Positions 4,510 through 12,753 of a stretch of 23,176 bases of DNA are shown here, in pieces. Source of the DNA: a virus. Below the pieces are notes generated by a model. That model had not been told where the DNA came from. It ran no database searches and saw nothing but the letters and a program-made list of their open reading frames with translations. A program made the translations under genes and the position numbers. The stretch's first letter is position 1. Every line of letters starts with the position of its first letter. Where the stretch lies: the IMG/VR virus record IMGVR_UViG_3300037486_000279, positions 1 through 23,176 of that record; one strand, 5' to 3'.

Positions 4510-4954
4510 CTTCACCTGCCAATCGGCTGGTGAAATAGTTGACCATGCGCTCAAACTCTTGGACTGGGTCAAGCCCCGCCTCCTGAGCCGCCTTGCGCCA
4601 TTCGATGACGGTCGGGGCGTCAAGCCCCAGCAGCTTGGCCCGCCGCTCCATGATGCGTAGAACGCTCATGACCGCTGAGTGATTGCCCTGCCTGGCGCCC
4701 GTCCACAGGCCCGTCAGCATGGCGTCAAGCCTGGCCAGCTCAAGCTGGCGCAGCTCATCTGCCGGTTGCTGTAGCGTCTTCTGAATGCCCGACATGACCG
4801 CCCGATAGGCGCCGGACGGGTGAGCATAGCCCAGCCGCTGCGCAATCACGTCGAACGTGACGCCCGCCTTGCGCAGCTCAAGGGCCTGCCGCTCTTTCTC
4901 CACGGCGTCGAGGCGCCGTACACTGGTCTTGCTTTCACGTCTGCCGCCCGGCAT
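4487..4954 (-). CDS. Terminase small subunit-like protein
   Basis: A 155-residue helical, basic-N-terminus protein directly upstream of the large terminase, overlapping it by 23 bases. Residues 20-55 form a helix-turn-helix-like segment (ALELRKAGVTFDVIAQRLGY followed by AHPSGAYRAV) suited to recognising the packaging site. The rest is long helices (LDAMLTGLWTGARQG, AVMSVLRIMERRAKLLGLDAP) as in small terminases. The ATG at 4954 has an AGGAGG site 7 bases upstream inside the end of the ParB-like gene. The assignment rests on the fold-like pattern plus position, not on a diagnostic motif. Confidence 0.75.
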   Translation of the reverse strand: MPGGRRESKTSVRRLDAVEKERQALELRKAGVTFDVIAQRLGYAHPSGAYRAVMSGIQKTLQQPADELRQLELARLDAMLTGLWTGARQGNHSAVMSVLRIMERRAKLLGLDAPTVIEWRKAAQEAGLDPVQEFERMVNYFTSRLAGEDGGGRPT

Positions 4955-5837
4955 GGTCTGCCTCCTGACATAATTCTACCAGCCGCTCCGCAGGCCTGGG
5001 ACCTAGTACCCGCTTGACCACCTTGGCCTCCTTGCCGCTGATGGTCAGTGCGAGGCGGAACACCTGCCCGTCCTTCGCTGCCAGCACCTTATCCTGTGCT
5101 GACTTGGCGTGCAGGATGGCCTGTTCACGCCTGCGCTGGGCTGCCACTGCGTCAGCCGTCATAGCGTAGATGGCATCACTGCCATCAGCCCCCCGGCTGT
5201 TCGAAGCTTCAGTCAGCTGGTCGCTGCCCTGCCTGATGAGGTCCGCCTCTTCTTGTCCGATGCTGTCAGGCACCCAGGCCTGGGCATACTCAGCGTTGGA
5301 CATTGCATCCGGCGCCGCAATGTCGCTGAGCAGCCGGTTTAGCTCAACATCGTCCAGCATCAGGCTGTCAGCTGCCCAGTCCAGGGCGCCCAGGGCCTGA
5401 AGGTCACGCAGCACTTCGGCTTCCAGCTCAACGTCATGGCTGCCATGCGCCCGGTTGTGCCTGATGGTGCTGATGCGTGCCTGCTCCACCGTCATGTTGA
5501 CCTTGACGATAGGGATAGTGGCCATGCCCAGGGACTTGGCCGCCAGCCACCGATGCTCGCCGTCCACAATGACGAGGTCCTGGTTCACCAGGATGGGCTG
5601 GGTAAAGCCATCCTCCTCGATGGACCGCAGCAGGAGCTCAAAGTCATGGTCTGATTGCCGGTTGGGGTTGTAGTCGTTGGCGTGCAGCTGTTCAATGGGA
5701 ACGTACTCCACCGCCAGCTTCTGTAGGATAGCGTTCTTTTTGGCGACCGCCTTCTTGCCCTTGCTGGCCGCCCGCCTTGACAGCACCCGCTCCTGGGTCA
5801 GCTCGGGAGTGGTATTGCTGGGGTCAACCTCAGACAC
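4935..5837 (-). CDS. ParB/Spo0J-like nuclease-domain protein (long form)
   Basis: A 300-residue protein with a ParB N-terminal/nuclease-type domain at about residues 43-150. It contains YVPIEQLHANDYNPN, a LLLRSIEEDGFTQPILV segment, the hallmark VDGEHRW box, and IPIVKVNMTVEQARISTIRHN with the conserved NRAHG. The remaining half is helical, charged and of unknown function. Phage proteins of this type sit near terminases and DNA methyltransferases and are thought to bind or nick DNA or use CTP; nothing here proves which. The start is GTG at 5837, supported by GGAGGTGG just upstream, and it overlaps the methyltransferase end by 8 bases. Confidence 0.85.
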   Translation of the reverse strand: MSEVDPSNTTPELTQERVLSRRAASKGKKAVAKKNAILQKLAVEYVPIEQLHANDYNPNRQSDHDFELLLRSIEEDGFTQPILVNQDLVIVDGEHRWLAAKSLGMATIPIVKVNMTVEQARISTIRHNRAHGSHDVELEAEVLRDLQALGALDWAADSLMLDDVELNRLLSDIAAPDAMSNAEYAQAWVPDSIGQEEADLIRQGSDQLTEASNSRGADGSDAIYAMTADAVAAQRRREQAILHAKSAQDKVLAAKDGQVFRLALTISGKEAKVVKRVLGPRPAERLVELCQEADHAGRQT

Positions 5838-7113: not shown

Positions 7114-8253
7114 CTAGAAGCTCGCCTTGCCGTACCAGAATCCGGAGCCAGGTCTGAAGAAGTCGGGTTCAACCTGGGGAATGTGAGGTGACTTCACGCT
7201 GAACGGGTCGCCGCTGTACATAGACACCGCCAGCTGGCGCCAGCTGCCGAGGTTGGAGACGCATGTGTAGCATGGAGCCACGTCAGGTAGAGGCCCGTTG
7301 CTGTGGTGGGCATGGCAAGACAGGACCGTCTTCATGGCCGTCACTGCCCGGTCGGCAATCCAGGATGGCGCCGTGTCAATGCACGTCCGCTTGAAGCAGG
7401 CCTCCCATGACTCGTTGAGGTTCCTGAGCGGGCTGACCGCCCGGACGCCATACTTGGCAGCTGCACGGATGCCCGGCAGCCGCTCGCACATGGCGTCGAA
7501 CCACCTGGGCCAGGCCCTCATAGCCAGCTGAAGGCTGGGCACCCCTGCCACATTCATCGAGGGCGGGGCGATGCGCAGCCGGGAACGTGGCATGCCCATC
7601 CGGGCCATCACATCATAGGCGCTGTTATAGTCCCACCCATTGTCCTTGATAGCCTTCCAGACATCGCCATCCGTCCAGTCGTAAACCGGCCTGCACTCCC
7701 GCACTCCCTCCCGGTTGGGCTTGGTGAGGTACCCCTTGGACGAAAACAGGCCATACATCCGGCCCCGGCTTTCAGCCACCCGAAGCCCTATGACCTGGAA
7801 CAGGTCCTTGCCCGGCGCTGGGGGGAACCTATCCCTGGTTGTCATACGCTCAATGTTGATGTCGCCTATTTTGTAGGCCTGGGGCGGCGGTTGACGCACC
7901 CACTGCTCAGGTGGCAGCAGGGGGTCGAATACCCACCAGAAGGGCAGCTCACGGTTGAAGACGTTGAGTATGGGTTGGCAGGCATATATCCAGTGAAAGC
8001 TGACCTCAGGGCGGGTCGCCACCCTGGCGCAGTATTCAAACGTGCCAGGGAACATGATTTCCTCATCCCGCATTATCACGTCCACCGGCAGCGTGCCTGC
8101 CCGCTGCGCCGCAAGGATGCACACCTCAACGCAGATGCCGCTGTCCTTACCCCCGCTGAAGGACACCACGGGGCGATGCCCCTCAGCGTACAGGACATAC
8201 ATCCGTTCAACGGCAGCGTCAAAGACGTTCATGTCGAGCAGCCTACGGGGCAT
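7114..8253 (-). CDS. PAPS-reductase-family ATP pyrophosphatase (DndC-like)
   Basis: A 379-residue adenine-nucleotide alpha-hydrolase. The PP-loop SGGKDS is at residues 33-38 within PVVSFSGGKDSG. Family members activate ATP or PAPS to transfer or reduce sulfur; cellular CysH reduces PAPS, and DndC acts in phosphorothioate DNA modification. The protein is longer than CysH and has late cysteines (CHAHHSNG...CYTCVSN) that could hold a metal or Fe-S centre. The ATG at 8253 has GGAG 7 bases upstream and overlaps the ParB-like gene by 11 bases; the reading is open upstream to 8364, but that would overlap far more. Neighbouring DNA-modification genes suggest a DNA-related rather than sulfate-assimilation role. 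Confidence 0.85.
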   Translation of the reverse strand: MPRRLLDMNVFDAAVERMYVLYAEGHRPVVSFSGGKDSGICVEVCILAAQRAGTLPVDVIMRDEEIMFPGTFEYCARVATRPEVSFHWIYACQPILNVFNRELPFWWVFDPLLPPEQWVRQPPPQAYKIGDINIERMTTRDRFPPAPGKDLFQVIGLRVAESRGRMYGLFSSKGYLTKPNREGVRECRPVYDWTDGDVWKAIKDNGWDYNSAYDVMARMGMPRSRLRIAPPSMNVAGVPSLQLAMRAWPRWFDAMCERLPGIRAAAKYGVRAVSPLRNLNESWEACFKRTCIDTAPSWIADRAVTAMKTVLSCHAHHSNGPLPDVAPCYTCVSNLGSWRQLAVSMYSGDPFSVKSPHIPQVEPDFFRPGSGFWYGKASF

Positions 8254-8746
8254 AGGTGAACTCCGTGCCGCAGTTGGGGCAGACAACCCTCCCTGGTAGG
8301 GAGGGTTCTTCAGGCCCGCCAGGGTTGGGCGGTTGGCCCGGTTGGGCTGGTTGGTTGACCGCATCGAGAATTTCAGTCAGGCCGTCATCAGTCACCAGCT
8401 GCACCAGCGTGGCCAGCACCGCATCATCTGGAACAGCCAGGGCTGATAGCGGGTCCAGCGTCGCCAGTACCAGGTGCTCCTCCTCTTCGGTCAGGTCCAC
8501 GTACTTCACCGGTATGGACGCCTCACCCCTGCGCAAGGCCAGCGATACCCGCAAGTGCCCGTCCACCACGAACCCGCTGGCCCGGTTGACGATGACCTCA
8601 TTGACCCAGCCCACTCGGTCGAGCATCTTCTCAAGTGCGCCCTGTTGAGCCTTCGGGTGAATGCGCCAGTTCAAGGGGTTGGCCAGCAGCTGGTCCGGCG
8701 CCACCATGCCATGCCCTGAAATCCTATTCCGCCAGGAATGCGTCAT
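8243..8746 (-). CDS. ParB-like protein with C-terminal zinc-ribbon-like motif
   Basis: A 167-residue short ParB-domain protein: PDQLLANPLNWRIHP, LEKMLDRVGWVNEVIVN, the VDGHLRVSLA box (the DGxxR signature) and IPVKYVDLTEEEEHLVLATLD. After a Pro/Gly linker it ends with CPNCGTEF, half of a zinc ribbon or a small knuckle. I start it at ATG 8746, not at 8767, because a good promoter has its -10 element at 8758-8753, inside the longer reading. Transcription should then begin on the A of ATG 8746 itself. It is the first gene of the leftward operon, paired with the PAPS-reductase-like gene. Confidence 0.8.
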   Translation of the reverse strand: MTHSWRNRISGHGMVAPDQLLANPLNWRIHPKAQQGALEKMLDRVGWVNEVIVNRASGFVVDGHLRVSLALRRGEASIPVKYVDLTEEEEHLVLATLDPLSALAVPDDAVLATLVQLVTDDGLTEILDAVNQPAQPGQPPNPGGPEEPSLPGRVVCPNCGTEFTYAP

Positions 8747-8752
8747 GCGCCC

Positions 8753-8781
8753 ACCATAGCACCGCATCTAGCCTCGGTCAA
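8753..8781 (-). promoter_or_regulatory. Leftward promoter, predicted leaderless
   Basis: On the minus strand: -35 TTGACC (8781-8776), a 17-base spacer, extended -10 TGC-TATGGT (hexamer 8758-8753). The usual distance of about 7 bases puts the start of transcription at 8746, the first base of the ATG of the ParB-like gene, giving an mRNA with no leader. It would drive the whole leftward packaging operon. Confidence 0.65.
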
Positions 8782-9313: not shown

Positions 9314-9682
9314 ATGAACTTCCCGCTTGAGCTCACCCCTGCGCTGACCGGCGAAGATACCCGCCGGTTCCTTATGGCCATCCGCAACCCGAAGACGCTG
9401 GAGCTGCGGGCCAGCAAACCGGGGCCGAACGTAGGGCCTATCTGGAACCTGGACCCCGGTGAGGTGATGTACGTGTGGCGCATGGTGGCGTTTGCCATCA
9501 GCACCAACCCGAAGCACCACTGCCTGCCGATGTGCGCTGACTTTGACGTGCGCATCGCAGACTACCGTGAGCGCCTGGCCCGGACCCGTGAGCTGGACCT
9601 AATCGCTGATGCGATTGTGGATACAGTTCCGCCGTCGCTGTGGCATGGCGTTGCCCGATGGTCACGAGCCTTCGGGGGTTGA
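9314..9682 (+). CDS. Hypothetical early protein
   Basis: A 122-residue protein, the first gene of the rightward operon. It starts at ATG 9314 behind a strong GGAGG site inside a CCTGAAGGAGG box. It contains LELRASKPGPNVGPIWNLDP and a helical middle (VMYVWRMVAFAIS), with no motif I can name. Its TGA stop (9680-9682) directly abuts the first base of a hammerhead ribozyme, so cleavage would leave this coding region with an RNA 3' end about 36 bases beyond its stop codon. Confidence 0.7.
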   Translation: MNFPLELTPALTGEDTRRFLMAIRNPKTLELRASKPGPNVGPIWNLDPGEVMYVWRMVAFAISTNPKHHCLPMCADFDVRIADYRERLARTRELDLIADAIVDTVPPSLWHGVARWSRAFGG

Positions 9683-9746
9683 GGCCGAAACGTGGCAGGC
9701 CTGGAAACCTGCCACGTCGCTGGGTACCGCCCAGCCTGATGAGGCC
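9683..9746 (+). ncRNA. Type II hammerhead ribozyme (HHR1)
   Basis: Self-cleaving RNA with every core base present. Stem II 5' strand GGCC (9683-9686); GAAA (9687-9690); stem III CGTGGCAGG (9691-9699) pairing with CCTGCCACG (9708-9716) around loop CCTGGAAA; the A9690-U9717 pair; C17 at 9718, so the triplet is GUC and cleavage falls between 9718 and 9719. Stem I is GCTGGG/CCCAGC (9719-9735, loop TACCG). The catalytic CTGATGA is at 9736-9742 and the stem II 3' strand GGCC at 9743-9746. The open end at stem II makes it type II. It fills the gap between two genes, with the next ribosome site (AAGGAG) 4 bases after it. Confidence 0.92.
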
Positions 9747-9762
9747 ATGAAAGGAGCCGCCT

Positions 9763-9945
9763 GTGAAGCGCATTGCCTACTGGGTCCGCTACAGCCGGAT
9801 TGAGGCCGGTCGCACGGTTGGCCGTGGAAAGGTCATCGTGTGCAGCACGTCGCCCGCCCAGGCCATTGAGGACGCTGCTGATGTCCTGATGACCAAGGGC
9901 CTGGGGTTCAATACCCGCATCACCAGCGCCAAGCCGAAAGCGTGA
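9763..9945 (+). CDS. Small hypothetical protein between two ribozymes
   Basis: A 60-residue basic protein (MKRIAYWVRYSRIEAGRTV, then a strand KVIVCSTSPAQAIEDAADVL), perhaps a small alpha/beta domain of the kind found in many phage early genes. It starts at GTG 9763 with AAGGAG (9751-9756) 6 bases upstream. It is flanked on both sides by hammerhead ribozymes: HHR1 ends 16 bases before it and HHR2 begins at the base after its stop. If both cut, this gene would be released as its own small mRNA. Confidence 0.75.
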   Translation: MKRIAYWVRYSRIEAGRTVGRGKVIVCSTSPAQAIEDAADVLMTKGLGFNTRITSAKPKA

Positions 9946-10061
9946 GGCCGAAACCGGCACGCTACAGCCACTGCGGCCAGCCAGATGCCCTCCGGGGCCG
10001 AGAGCTTCCCAGTGGTCGAGGGCGTGCCGGTCGGGTGGACGACGCCACCCCTGAGGAGGCC
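9946..10061 (+). ncRNA. Type II hammerhead ribozyme with long stem III (HHR2)
   Basis: A second complete hammerhead core. Stem II GGCC (9946-9949); GAAA (9950-9953); stem III CCGGCACGC (9954-9962) with GCGTGCCGG (10022-10030); the A9953-U10031 pair; C17 at 10032 in a GUC triplet, so cleavage lies between 10032 and 10033. Stem I is GGGTGG/CCACCC (10033-10050). The core CTGAGGA (10051-10057) fits CUGANGA, and stem II 3' is GGCC (10058-10061). Stem III carries an insert of 59 bases with further pairs (CCACTG 9968/CAGTGG 10010; CGGCC 9974/GGCCG 9996). The ribosome site GGAGG (10055-10059) of the next gene lies inside the core. Confidence 0.9.
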
Positions 10062-10064
10062 GCA

Positions 10065-10226
10065 ATGCTGCACTACACGTACTTCCACACGGAGCGGGAA
10101 GCCACCCAGTTCAGGGCCAAGGCCAAGCGGCTCGGCTGGACCTGCTCCACCCCCTTCTTCCATGCGGAAGGGTACTGGCAGGGCGGGTGGTCAGTTTGCA
10201 CTAACTGGCCCTTCGCAGTTAGTTGA
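10065..10226 (+). CDS. Small hypothetical protein downstream of HHR2
   Basis: A 53-residue protein (MLHYTYFHTEREATQFRAKA... ending GGWSVCTNWPFAVS), rich in aromatic residues. The pattern of a short strand, a helix (EREATQFRAKAKRLGW) and a further strand suggests a tiny alpha/beta fold. The ATG at 10065 follows GAGGAGG, which is part of the ribozyme core and stem II of HHR2. A longer reading from 9942 in the same frame would run through the ribozyme and has no ribosome site. Function is unknown. Confidence 0.75.
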   Translation: MLHYTYFHTEREATQFRAKAKRLGWTCSTPFFHAEGYWQGGWSVCTNWPFAVS

Positions 10227-10228
10227 AC

Positions 10229-10294
10229 CCTCCGGACAGCGGGCGAGAGGTCGCCCGCTAGTCGGAGTGCTCAACCGGGGCACCAATGAGGAGG
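10229..10294 (+). other. Hammerhead-shaped three-way junction without intact core
   Basis: The spacer before the zinc-ribbon gene folds like the two ribozymes: closing stem CCTCC (10229-10233)/GGAGG (10290-10294), a 9-pair stem AGCGGGCGA (10238-10246)/TCGCCCGCT (10251-10259), a GTC triplet (10261-10263), then a weak stem I-like hairpin. The position, directly after a TGA and ending at the ribosome site, is also the same. The core is wrong, though: CGGAC replaces CGAAAC and CCAATGA replaces CUGANGA, so cleavage is not expected. The closing stem contains the GGAGG ribosome site and could hide it. Confidence 0.45.
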
Positions 10295-10299
10295 TCACC

Positions 10300-11041: not shown

Positions 11042-11154
11042 TGACAATCGTAACGTGGCATGTCGGCTGGTACATCCGCCCGTGGTACTTCAAGGCTGGG
11101 CGGTTCGGTGTCGTCGCCCGCTGGCGACGGCATGGAGTGACGGTCGGCCTGTAG
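11041..11154 (+). CDS. 37-residue small protein
   Basis: A small gene encoding MTIVTWHVGWYIRPWYFKAG followed by 17 residues ending in GVTVGL. It is basic and aromatic and resembles the neighbouring small early proteins in composition. The in-frame ATGs at 11038 and 11041 both follow GGAGGG (11031-11036); spacing favours 11041. The ATG overlaps the upstream stop. It is too short for a family assignment, but the ribosome site, overlap and codon use are those of a real gene. Confidence 0.5.
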   Translation: MTIVTWHVGWYIRPWYFKAGRFGVVARWRRHGVTVGL

Positions 11155-11234
11155 CCGACCCCCGGCCCCCGGCTCCCCAGGCTTGCCGCCTGGGTGGCCA
11201 GGGAGCGGGAGCCGCCCGCTTTAGGAGGTGTGAC
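11155..11234 (+). other. Structured intercistronic spacer
   Basis: An 80-base GC-rich gap. CGGCTCCC (11170-11177) can pair with GGGAGCCG (11207-11214), and inside lies a 7-pair hairpin CCCAGGC/GCCTGGG (11176-11194); the two compete at their first bases. No hammerhead core is present. A ribosome site AGGAGG (11223-11228) follows the fold. Confidence 0.4.
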
Positions 11235-11576
11235 ATGCCCCGAACCTGGCTATGGCCGGACCACCGTATCAGCAAGAGCGAGAGTGCAGCACTGCGAGAG
11301 GAGCACAACCGGCTGGTGAACAGCCACGCCGCCCTGCTAAAGGCTCTGCGCATAGCGCAAGCGGCACTTGATGAGGACCCAGGGCTTGAGACACCTATCG
11401 GGCACACTATCAGCGCCGCCATTGCACAGGCGGACCCGCCGCCCATCTATGAGGGCAACCTGAGGGTGCGCATGATGGACGGGTCCAGCCCTGACCCCGG
11501 ATACTGGGCGACGGCCAAGGTTCTAGTGGCCAGCGCCGCCCAGGCGAACGTCACCGAGCAGGATGAACAACCCTAG
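11235..11576 (+). CDS. Hypothetical protein with N-terminal coiled coil
   Basis: A 113-residue protein. Residues 10-50 are a predicted coiled coil (SKSESAALREEHNRLVNSHA, then ALLKALRIAQAALDED), followed by a loop and a short C-terminal domain ending ANVTEQDEQP. The start at ATG 11235 is fixed by AGGAGG at 11223-11228; an upstream reading in the same frame from 11055 overlaps the preceding small gene and the structured spacer. It lies directly upstream of the RecT-like gene, so a recombination-linked role is possible but not shown. Confidence 0.65.
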   Translation: MPRTWLWPDHRISKSESAALREEHNRLVNSHAALLKALRIAQAALDEDPGLETPIGHTISAAIAQADPPPIYEGNLRVRMMDGSSPDPGYWATAKVLVASAAQANVTEQDEQP

Positions 11577-11588
11577 GCCGACTAGTCG

Positions 11589-11657
11589 CCCACGGCAAGA
11601 GGCTCCCCGATGCCACGGGGGGCCGTTGGCGTGTCCGACGCCACCCTGAAGGAGGGT
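11589..11657 (+). other. Folded spacer with hammerhead-like shape, core not intact
   Basis: Spacer before the RecT-like gene. ACGGC (11592-11596) pairs with GCCGT (11622-11626), and after one T comes a clean hairpin GGCGT/ACGCC (11628-11642). ACCCT/AGGGT (11643-11657) can form a third hairpin that holds the ribosome site. The order of stems and the CTGAAGGA sequence (11646-11653) recall the upstream ribozymes, but GAAA is missing and the CUGANGA box has an extra base. Confidence 0.35.
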
Positions 11658-11661
11658 AGAC

Positions 11662-12753
11662 ATGACCGACATGGCCACCGAGAAAGCCCTTGCGCTGCCC
11701 GGCCCGGTATCGTCCGAGCTGGCTGCAATGGGAAGCCGCAAGGAAGTCCGGGAGCTGGTGCGTCGCATCCAGACCCAGGCTCCGGGCGGGATGAAGTTGA
11801 CTCCGGCTGAATGCGTCACGCTGGCGCAATACTCATTCAGCCTGGGGGCTAACCCGCTGGTGGGAGAGGCATGGCTGCTCAAGAACCAGCGCTCTGGTGA
11901 AGTGCTGGGCGTCATGCCCGGCATGGCACTGTTCCGGCGCCGGGCCGATGAGAAGGATGAGCGCACTGGTGATGTGCGCTGGCTCGAGCCTGAAGTCATC
12001 ACCGACCCCGATGAGCTTGAGCGGCTGGGCATCCCTGATGATGCGTTCGTGGCCCTGCGAATGCGGCTGTACCGCCAGTCGCAGACCAAAGCGCACTCCC
12101 AGGCCGCCAAGACATTGGCTGAGGCTGGTGCGCCGTGGAACGACATCAAAGAGGCCCTGGGCCTGAAGCCCTACACTTCGGGGCTGGGCTGGGTCACCAG
12201 GACTGAAATGAGCCAGCGTGGCCGGGGCGGGCCGCAGGAAGGCCCGTACCAGATAGCTGAGCGCAGGGCCGAGAAGCACGCCTTGAAGCAGACCTACTCC
12301 CTGCCGTTCGGGTTCATACCGCTGGCTGAAGGCAGCAGCATACCGGACGGCGCCACCCTTGAGGACTACATCCATGAGGGTGAGTTTCAGGAGGTGGCTG
12401 CGCCACCGCCGCCGCCTGACACCAGAACCACGGAGCAGAAGCATGAGGCGGGCACCCAGGCCGCCGCAGCCCTGTTCGACACAGAACCCGCTCCGGCCCG
12501 CTCCGCAGCCCCTGCTGACCCTGAGCCGAGGTTGTGGGACGACGCCACGGTCAAGCGGGCCGCTGAGGCCTGGGAGAGCACGGGGGTACTTGATACCCCT
12601 GCGGCGACGAAGCATGTCATCATGCTACTCAACCTGTCGCCCTTCAAGCCTGGCGTCCCTGATACGTCCTTGGTCACCTGGGGGCGGTCCTACCGCTCCT
12701 ATCGTGAGCAGGGCATGACGACCAAAGAAGCCGCCGCCCTGGCGAAGGAATAG
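11662..12753 (+). CDS. RecT-like single-strand annealing protein
   Basis: A 363-residue protein whose central part matches the RecT/Bet-type annealing family. LTPAECVTLAQYSFSLGANP (residues 46-65), then LVGEAWLLKN and VLGVMPGMALFRRRADE, echo the family pattern of a helix followed by NPL-GE and a strand-rich core. Such proteins coat single-stranded DNA and anneal it to complementary strands during phage recombination and replication. The C-terminal 120 residues are Pro/Ala-rich with a predicted helical tail, possibly a binding site for host SSB or a partner. Start ATG 11662 has GGAGGG upstream. No exonuclease partner is seen nearby; the resolvase-like gene at 20220 may act later in the same pathway. 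Confidence 0.72.
   Translation: MTDMATEKALALPGPVSSELAAMGSRKEVRELVRRIQTQAPGGMKLTPAECVTLAQYSFSLGANPLVGEAWLLKNQRSGEVLGVMPGMALFRRRADEKDERTGDVRWLEPEVITDPDELERLGIPDDAFVALRMRLYRQSQTKAHSQAAKTLAEAGAPWNDIKEALGLKPYTSGLGWVTRTEMSQRGRGGPQEGPYQIAERRAEKHALKQTYSLPFGFIPLAEGSSIPDGATLEDYIHEGEFQEVAAPPPPPDTRTTEQKHEAGTQAAAALFDTEPAPARSAAPADPEPRLWDDATVKRAAEAWESTGVLDTPAATKHVIMLLNLSPFKPGVPDTSLVTWGRSYRSYREQGMTTKEAAALAKE

Follow-up and report, generated by a model that had tools for sequence, protein, structure and literature searches.

The window, a whole IMG/VR virus record of 23,176 bp, contains a tandem pair of type II hammerhead ribozymes, HH1 and HH2. A hammerhead between the first two genes had been claimed in the original prediction and is confirmed here, but a second one, which overlaps a ribosome-binding site, had been overlooked. 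Judged from the sequence and from modelled folds, the two ribozymes probably (at about 0.8) cut the transcript into separate mRNAs, with HH2 handing over the Shine-Dalgarno (SD) sequence of the gene that follows it, and phage mRNA processing appears to be the best reading of the arrangement. The features involved are as follows.

9314–9682 (+): gene 1, an open reading frame of 122 aa; its TGA stop (9680–9682) adjoins HH1
9683–9746 (+): HH1, a type II hammerhead, from descriptor, fold and covariance model R1
9718/9719 (+): predicted HH1 cut, after C17, from hammerhead chemistry
9750–9756 (+): AAAGGAG, the likely gene 2 SD, read from the sequence
9763–9945 (+): gene 2, an open reading frame of 60 aa with a GTG start at 9763; its TGA stop (9943–9945) adjoins HH2
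9946–10061 (+): HH2, the second type II hammerhead, from descriptor scans and folds
10032/10033 (+): predicted HH2 cut, after C17
10054–10059 (+): AGGAGG, the gene 3 SD, read from the sequence and from the association of N7 = G with ATG spacing
10065–10226 (+): gene 3, 53 aa, with its ATG at 10065, 5 nt past AGGAGG

The terminase and portal genes of the window lie on the minus strand, and a series of small plus-strand genes without known function diverges from about 9.1–9.3 kb. The terminase shares 42% identity with the terminases of Actinoplanes phage phiAsp2 and Streptomyces phage TurkishDelight. No close relative of the phage was found by blastn against INPHARED, or in IMG/VR searched with the 363-aa protein encoded at 11662–12753 or with gene 1. 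Terminase relatives (about 45–54% identity) gave no match to model R1, described below. Two ParB-like proteins (4935–5837 and 8243–8767, minus strand) and a PAPS-reductase-domain protein (7114–8364, minus strand) are also encoded near the packaging genes. Neither gene 1 nor gene 2 has a family match in Pfam or PHROG. The GC content of gene 1 by codon position (0.64/0.49/0.76) resembles that of neighbouring genes of the region, and that of gene 2 is 0.56/0.54/0.79. For gene 3 the corresponding values (0.46/0.56/0.81) favour a start at ATG 10065; a start at GTG 9942, reading through HH2, is disfavoured, the extension (0.83/0.66/0.68) looking non-coding.

HH1 begins immediately past the gene 1 stop codon, as predicted, and fills the space beyond it, three bases separating its end from the AAAGGAG motif. 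Stem II is formed from 9683–9686 and 9743–9746 (GGCC on each side) and is followed by GAA (9687–9689). Stem III (9690–9699/9708–9717) contains 10 contiguous pairs including A15.1–U16.1; the stem had been foreseen, with a count of nine. The GUC triplet ends at C17 (C9718), and stem I (9719–9725/9729–9735) has the expected six Watson-Crick pairs together with a U.G pair. The core CUGAUGA occupies 9736–9742, with N7 = U. The conserved elements (CUGAUGA, GAAA, GUC) are intact with zero mismatches, covering the class positions C3 U4 G5 A6 N7 G8 A9, G12 A13 A14, A15.1–U16.1 and H17. Every part named in the claim of a complete, mismatch-free type II hammerhead at 9683–9746 was found in its place. Minimum free energy folding returns precisely the hammerhead three-way junction (-37.1 kcal/mol, z -5.0, 0 of 200 shuffles as good). 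In the minimum free energy folds of both HH1 and HH2, stems I and III are loop-closed and stem II is open to the flanks. Against model R1, all of whose sequences come from outside the window, HH1 scores 61.4 bits (E = 2.5e-15). A clear pseudoknot between loop I and the 3' tail of HH1 was looked for and none was seen: at most three bases of the loop pair with the tail (two in HH2), and 3–4 bases with the 5' flank. The identity of HH1 as a type II hammerhead with a predicted cut at 9718/9719, as originally proposed, is strongly supported by its core, its modelled fold, the covariance model and the family context. Taken alone, HH1 is an ordinary further example of the known class of tandem phage hammerheads.

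HH2 begins directly past the gene 2 stop codon and ends 3 nt ahead of the gene 3 ATG. Its stem II (9946–9949/10058–10061) is again GGCC and is followed by GAA (9950–9952). Stem III (9953–9963/10021–10031) has eleven pairs and bears a long hairpin extension, the GUC triplet ends with C17 at 10032, and stem I (10033–10038/10045–10050) has six pairs. The core (CUGAGGA at 10051–10057, GAAA, GUC) is likewise intact, with N7 = G. Its fold gives z scores of -4.0 (for a slightly longer stretch) and -3.5. HH2 scores 24.1 bits against R1 over a partial alignment, the model aligning it only in part because stem III is long. Loop I lies outside the usual U-NNN-G of the family and stem III is unusually long, so HH2 cleavage may be slow. 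Because N7 is G, the core bases A6-G7-G8-A9 and the stem II bases G10.1-G10.2 together read AGGAGG, a perfect SD with the ATG 5 nt on.

The hammerhead descriptor matched none of 150 dinucleotide-shuffled versions of the window; over about 1.8 Mb of phage loci it made 177 matches in the real sequence and none in the reversed. A window scan allowing up to three core mismatches found exactly HH1 and HH2. A third hammerhead in 10227–10299, 11153–11236 or 11574–11662 was rejected, as no core is present in these spaces even with three mismatches. The covariance check called for by the original prediction had a mixed outcome. At the Rfam gathering threshold no family was reported in the window, HH1 and HH2 going unreported by the type II model RF02276, and relaxing the cut-off added nothing beyond a chance miRNA hairpin and an RF00008 match that is out of register; R1, as given above, recovered HH1. 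RF02276 also recovers just 3 of 9 good hammerheads in another phage record, IMGVR_UViG_3300038412_000035 (L007), and since it misses most of these the Rfam miss of HH1 and HH2 is a problem of sensitivity. The Rfam type II model thus misses many intact copies, so that phage annotations undercount hammerheads.

The GGCC-type type II core pattern occurs in at least 120 stretches of viral contigs. Among the matches listed, about 92% of those found by the core alone (n = 148) have both stems around the GUC. R1 was built from 36 hammerheads of other phages, also among the matches listed and none from the window. In the family alignment (A1), changes occur on both sides in 13 of 18 pairs, and 98.8% of cells pair, against 34–41% when the alignment is slid. 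This covariation belongs to the family rather than to the window copies, and the stems were among the selection criteria, about 8% of the core matches being discarded on that basis. The core and GUC are invariant in the alignment while the stem sequences vary, the core itself being a search criterion. Tandem copies are common (the maximum in any of the 20 records searched is 11), and many records hold a single hammerhead. L007 carries eleven R1 matches in one orientation over a span of about 5 kb.

For this hammerhead family it is a rule that the ribozyme begins immediately past a stop codon. In 98 of 127 dereplicated hammerheads (77%) the end of an open frame 60 codons or longer falls between -6 and +1 of stem II, mostly at 0 or +1, against 3–5% at control positions shifted by 500–1500 nt. 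An A precedes stem II in 133 of 137 cases, partly but not solely because stop codons end there.

The overlap of HH2 with an SD sequence prompted the idea that the core can be reused in this way, which was then tested on other hammerheads. In the first sets, an ATG that lies 3–9 nt downstream and opens at least 30 codons was present in 9 of 15 members with N7 = G, while only 7 of the 129 others had one (p = 7.5e-7). A second scan covered other stem II sequences; of the nine representatives that it contributed, seven fit. Pooled and dereplicated, 15 of 24 hammerheads with N7 = G (HH2 being one of the 15) have an ATG 3–9 nt after AGGAGG. The comparison with other N7 bases gives 7 of 101 for GG-type stem II (p = 1.4e-8) and 8 of 113 for all stem II types (p = 9e-9; 137 dereplicated hammerheads in all); dereplication was by sequence similarity rather than by tree, and these p values are nominal. 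Where N7 is C or U the ATG usually lies 15–45 nt downstream. None of the three representatives supplied only by the bacterial-genome scan fits the spacing. The fitting cases vary in their stems, flanks and genes, and sequence comparison indicates that reuse of the core as an SD recurs across many unrelated phages. HH2 fits this proposed SD-embedded subclass (N7 = G, AGGAGG, start codon 3–9 nt downstream) and HH1, with N7 = U, lies outside it. By secondary-structure estimate, the cost of opening AGGAGG is lower after cleavage in 13 of 17 SD-embedded members; the change is not clear for HH2 (4.4–4.9 kcal/mol before cleavage and 4.2–5.6 after, varying with the flank).

A hammerhead cut after C17 leaves a 2',3'-cyclic phosphate and a 5'-OH. 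HH1 and HH2 would cut the polycistronic plus-strand phage transcript after 9718 and after 10032, yielding separate mRNAs for gene 1, for gene 2 and for gene 3 onward, with gene 2 excised as a 314-nt RNA (9719–10032). As stems I and III are closed hairpins, each upstream product would end in hairpin III and each downstream product would begin with hairpin I. Such hairpin ends, together with the 5'-OH, should confer resistance to exonucleases and to decay that depends on a 5'-monophosphate. A ribosome terminating at the adjoining stop codon would sit over the 5' strand of the ribozyme, which begins there, and the ribozyme would fold once the ribosome has left. The HH2 core and stem II are also the gene 3 SD, which should make folding of the ribozyme incompatible with binding of the 30S subunit. 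Cleavage of HH2 would then hand the SD to the ribosome, since the two halves would be joined by four pairs only. A broader version, which we hold tentatively and think somewhat less probable than its converse, is that this is a widespread phage device: the folded hammerhead would block downstream translation, cleavage would remove the upstream message and turn on the next gene, N7 = G would be selected for the SD, and placement at the stop codon would tie folding to ribosome release.

The intercistronic structures could instead act mainly as spacers, RNA-stability hairpins or SD-masking elements that hardly cleave themselves in vivo, if at all, which we consider unlikely. A purely structural role needs no invariant unpaired core bases, yet these are intact in both HH1 and HH2, and in the family the core and GUC stay constant while the stems vary, with the reservation on the search criterion given above. 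Self-cleavage is nonetheless not assured by a good consensus, 14 of 18 consensus-conforming hammerheads having cleaved in vitro and four having been inactive (PMC3088659). The loop I–3' tail pseudoknot that is important for speed in some ribozymes (PMC3088659) is clear in neither HH1 nor HH2, and the space at 10227–10299 forms a three-way junction with an SD in its closing stem and without a hammerhead core. In the GGCC family as a whole, loop I–3' tail pairing is not above that of shuffled sequences (23 observed, 21.3 shuffled).

The same pair of cuts could have a different purpose, namely excision of gene 2 as the 314-nt RNA with ligation of its ends into a circular RNA rather than production of separate mRNAs. 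Two hammerheads of the same orientation do flank one short gene here, and likewise around gene 248 of Streptomyces phage Satis. However, arrays of this kind gave no spliced or circular products when Perreault 2011 looked for them (PMC3088659), and the many records with one hammerhead would be unable to make a circle, so we regard circularization as very improbable. That the elements are a chance resemblance or a decayed relic has still less to recommend it and is scarcely credible: the window has no Rfam family at cut-off, but the shuffled and reversed controls gave no matches, the E value of HH1 is very low, and two intact copies occupy adjacent gene spaces, each adjoining a stop codon.

Tandem intercistronic type II hammerheads are already known in phages, together with the proposal that they process transcripts (Perreault 2011, PMC3088659). 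HH1 and HH2 share with RF02276 and with these published ribozymes the stem II-open permutation, the core bases, the GUC and the occurrence of tandem copies flanking phage or prophage genes. They differ from RF02276 in falling below the Rfam cut-off and in the long, extended stem III and atypical loop I of HH2. In contrast with the published type II elements, the HH2 core forms the downstream SD and the ribozymes sit precisely at the stop codon; in the main text of PMC3088659 neither Shine-Dalgarno sequences nor ribosomes nor stop codons come up. In the arrays of Agrobacterium tumefaciens (ardA), Clostridium scindens and Azorhizobium, too, single genes are surrounded by several hammerheads within a single transcript (PMC3088659, Figure 3). 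All three cleaved in vitro, and the cloned A. tumefaciens array also cleaved in E. coli (PMC3088659). These arrays involve other genes and phages, and an SD overlap is undescribed for them. The HHphage hammerhead of haloviruses HF1 and HF2 similarly sits just ahead of a phage gene, 13 nt from the start, and its cleavage site is no more than three nt away from a mapped transcript end (PMC3088659). It differs in being a core variant from an archaeal virus, with no SD reported as part of the core. A search of the open-access literature yielded no paper describing phage hammerheads that overlap an SD or a stop codon, and within that literature HH2 and the SD-embedded subclass appear to be undescribed. 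For the function of phage hammerheads, a question since 2011, their precise placement and the reuse of the core as an SD give specific, testable claims, sharpened to the positions of the RNA ends, which gene is switched on, and the effect expected of a dead ribozyme that keeps the SD.

The Satis genome (MH576962.1) carries a hammerhead-like pair at 146783–146838 and 146472–146527 (53.0 and 52.3 bits) around gene 248. As in the window, two elements of type II hammerhead-like form point the same way on either side of a single short gene, but each Satis element has an additional U separating A9 from stem II, together with N7 = C and a tail of GUCAG. The pair is unannotated in the record; there is a third, weaker match at 165944–166006, and a similar match in phage Kradal. 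Satis is grown on S. lividans and offers a cultured test bed for hammerhead-like elements around gene 248.

Two further gene spaces of the window are structured. The space between genes 3 and 4 (10227–10299) folds into the three-way junction mentioned above, with z about -3.2 to -3.3 and no hammerhead core; its closing stem, CCUCC/GGAGG, holds the gene 4 SD in a placement like that of HH2. The space at 11574–11662 (z -3.0) begins at a UAG stop followed by GCCGA, again with no hammerhead core.

In about one-quarter of GGCC type II hammerheads the 3' tail right past stem II matches the core CUGAN in reverse complement. The tail base tracks N7, with 19 cases of N7 = C and GTCAG, eight of N7 = U and ATCAG, and one mismatch (28 dereplicated). 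Such tails are absent from HH1 and HH2; examples are found in loci L026, L075, L008 and L033 and in Satis (L217:6001–6063; the Kradal locus is L218). An alternative hairpin, CUGAN-GAGGCC-N'UCAG, could dismantle the core in these cases, perhaps making cleavage irreversible.
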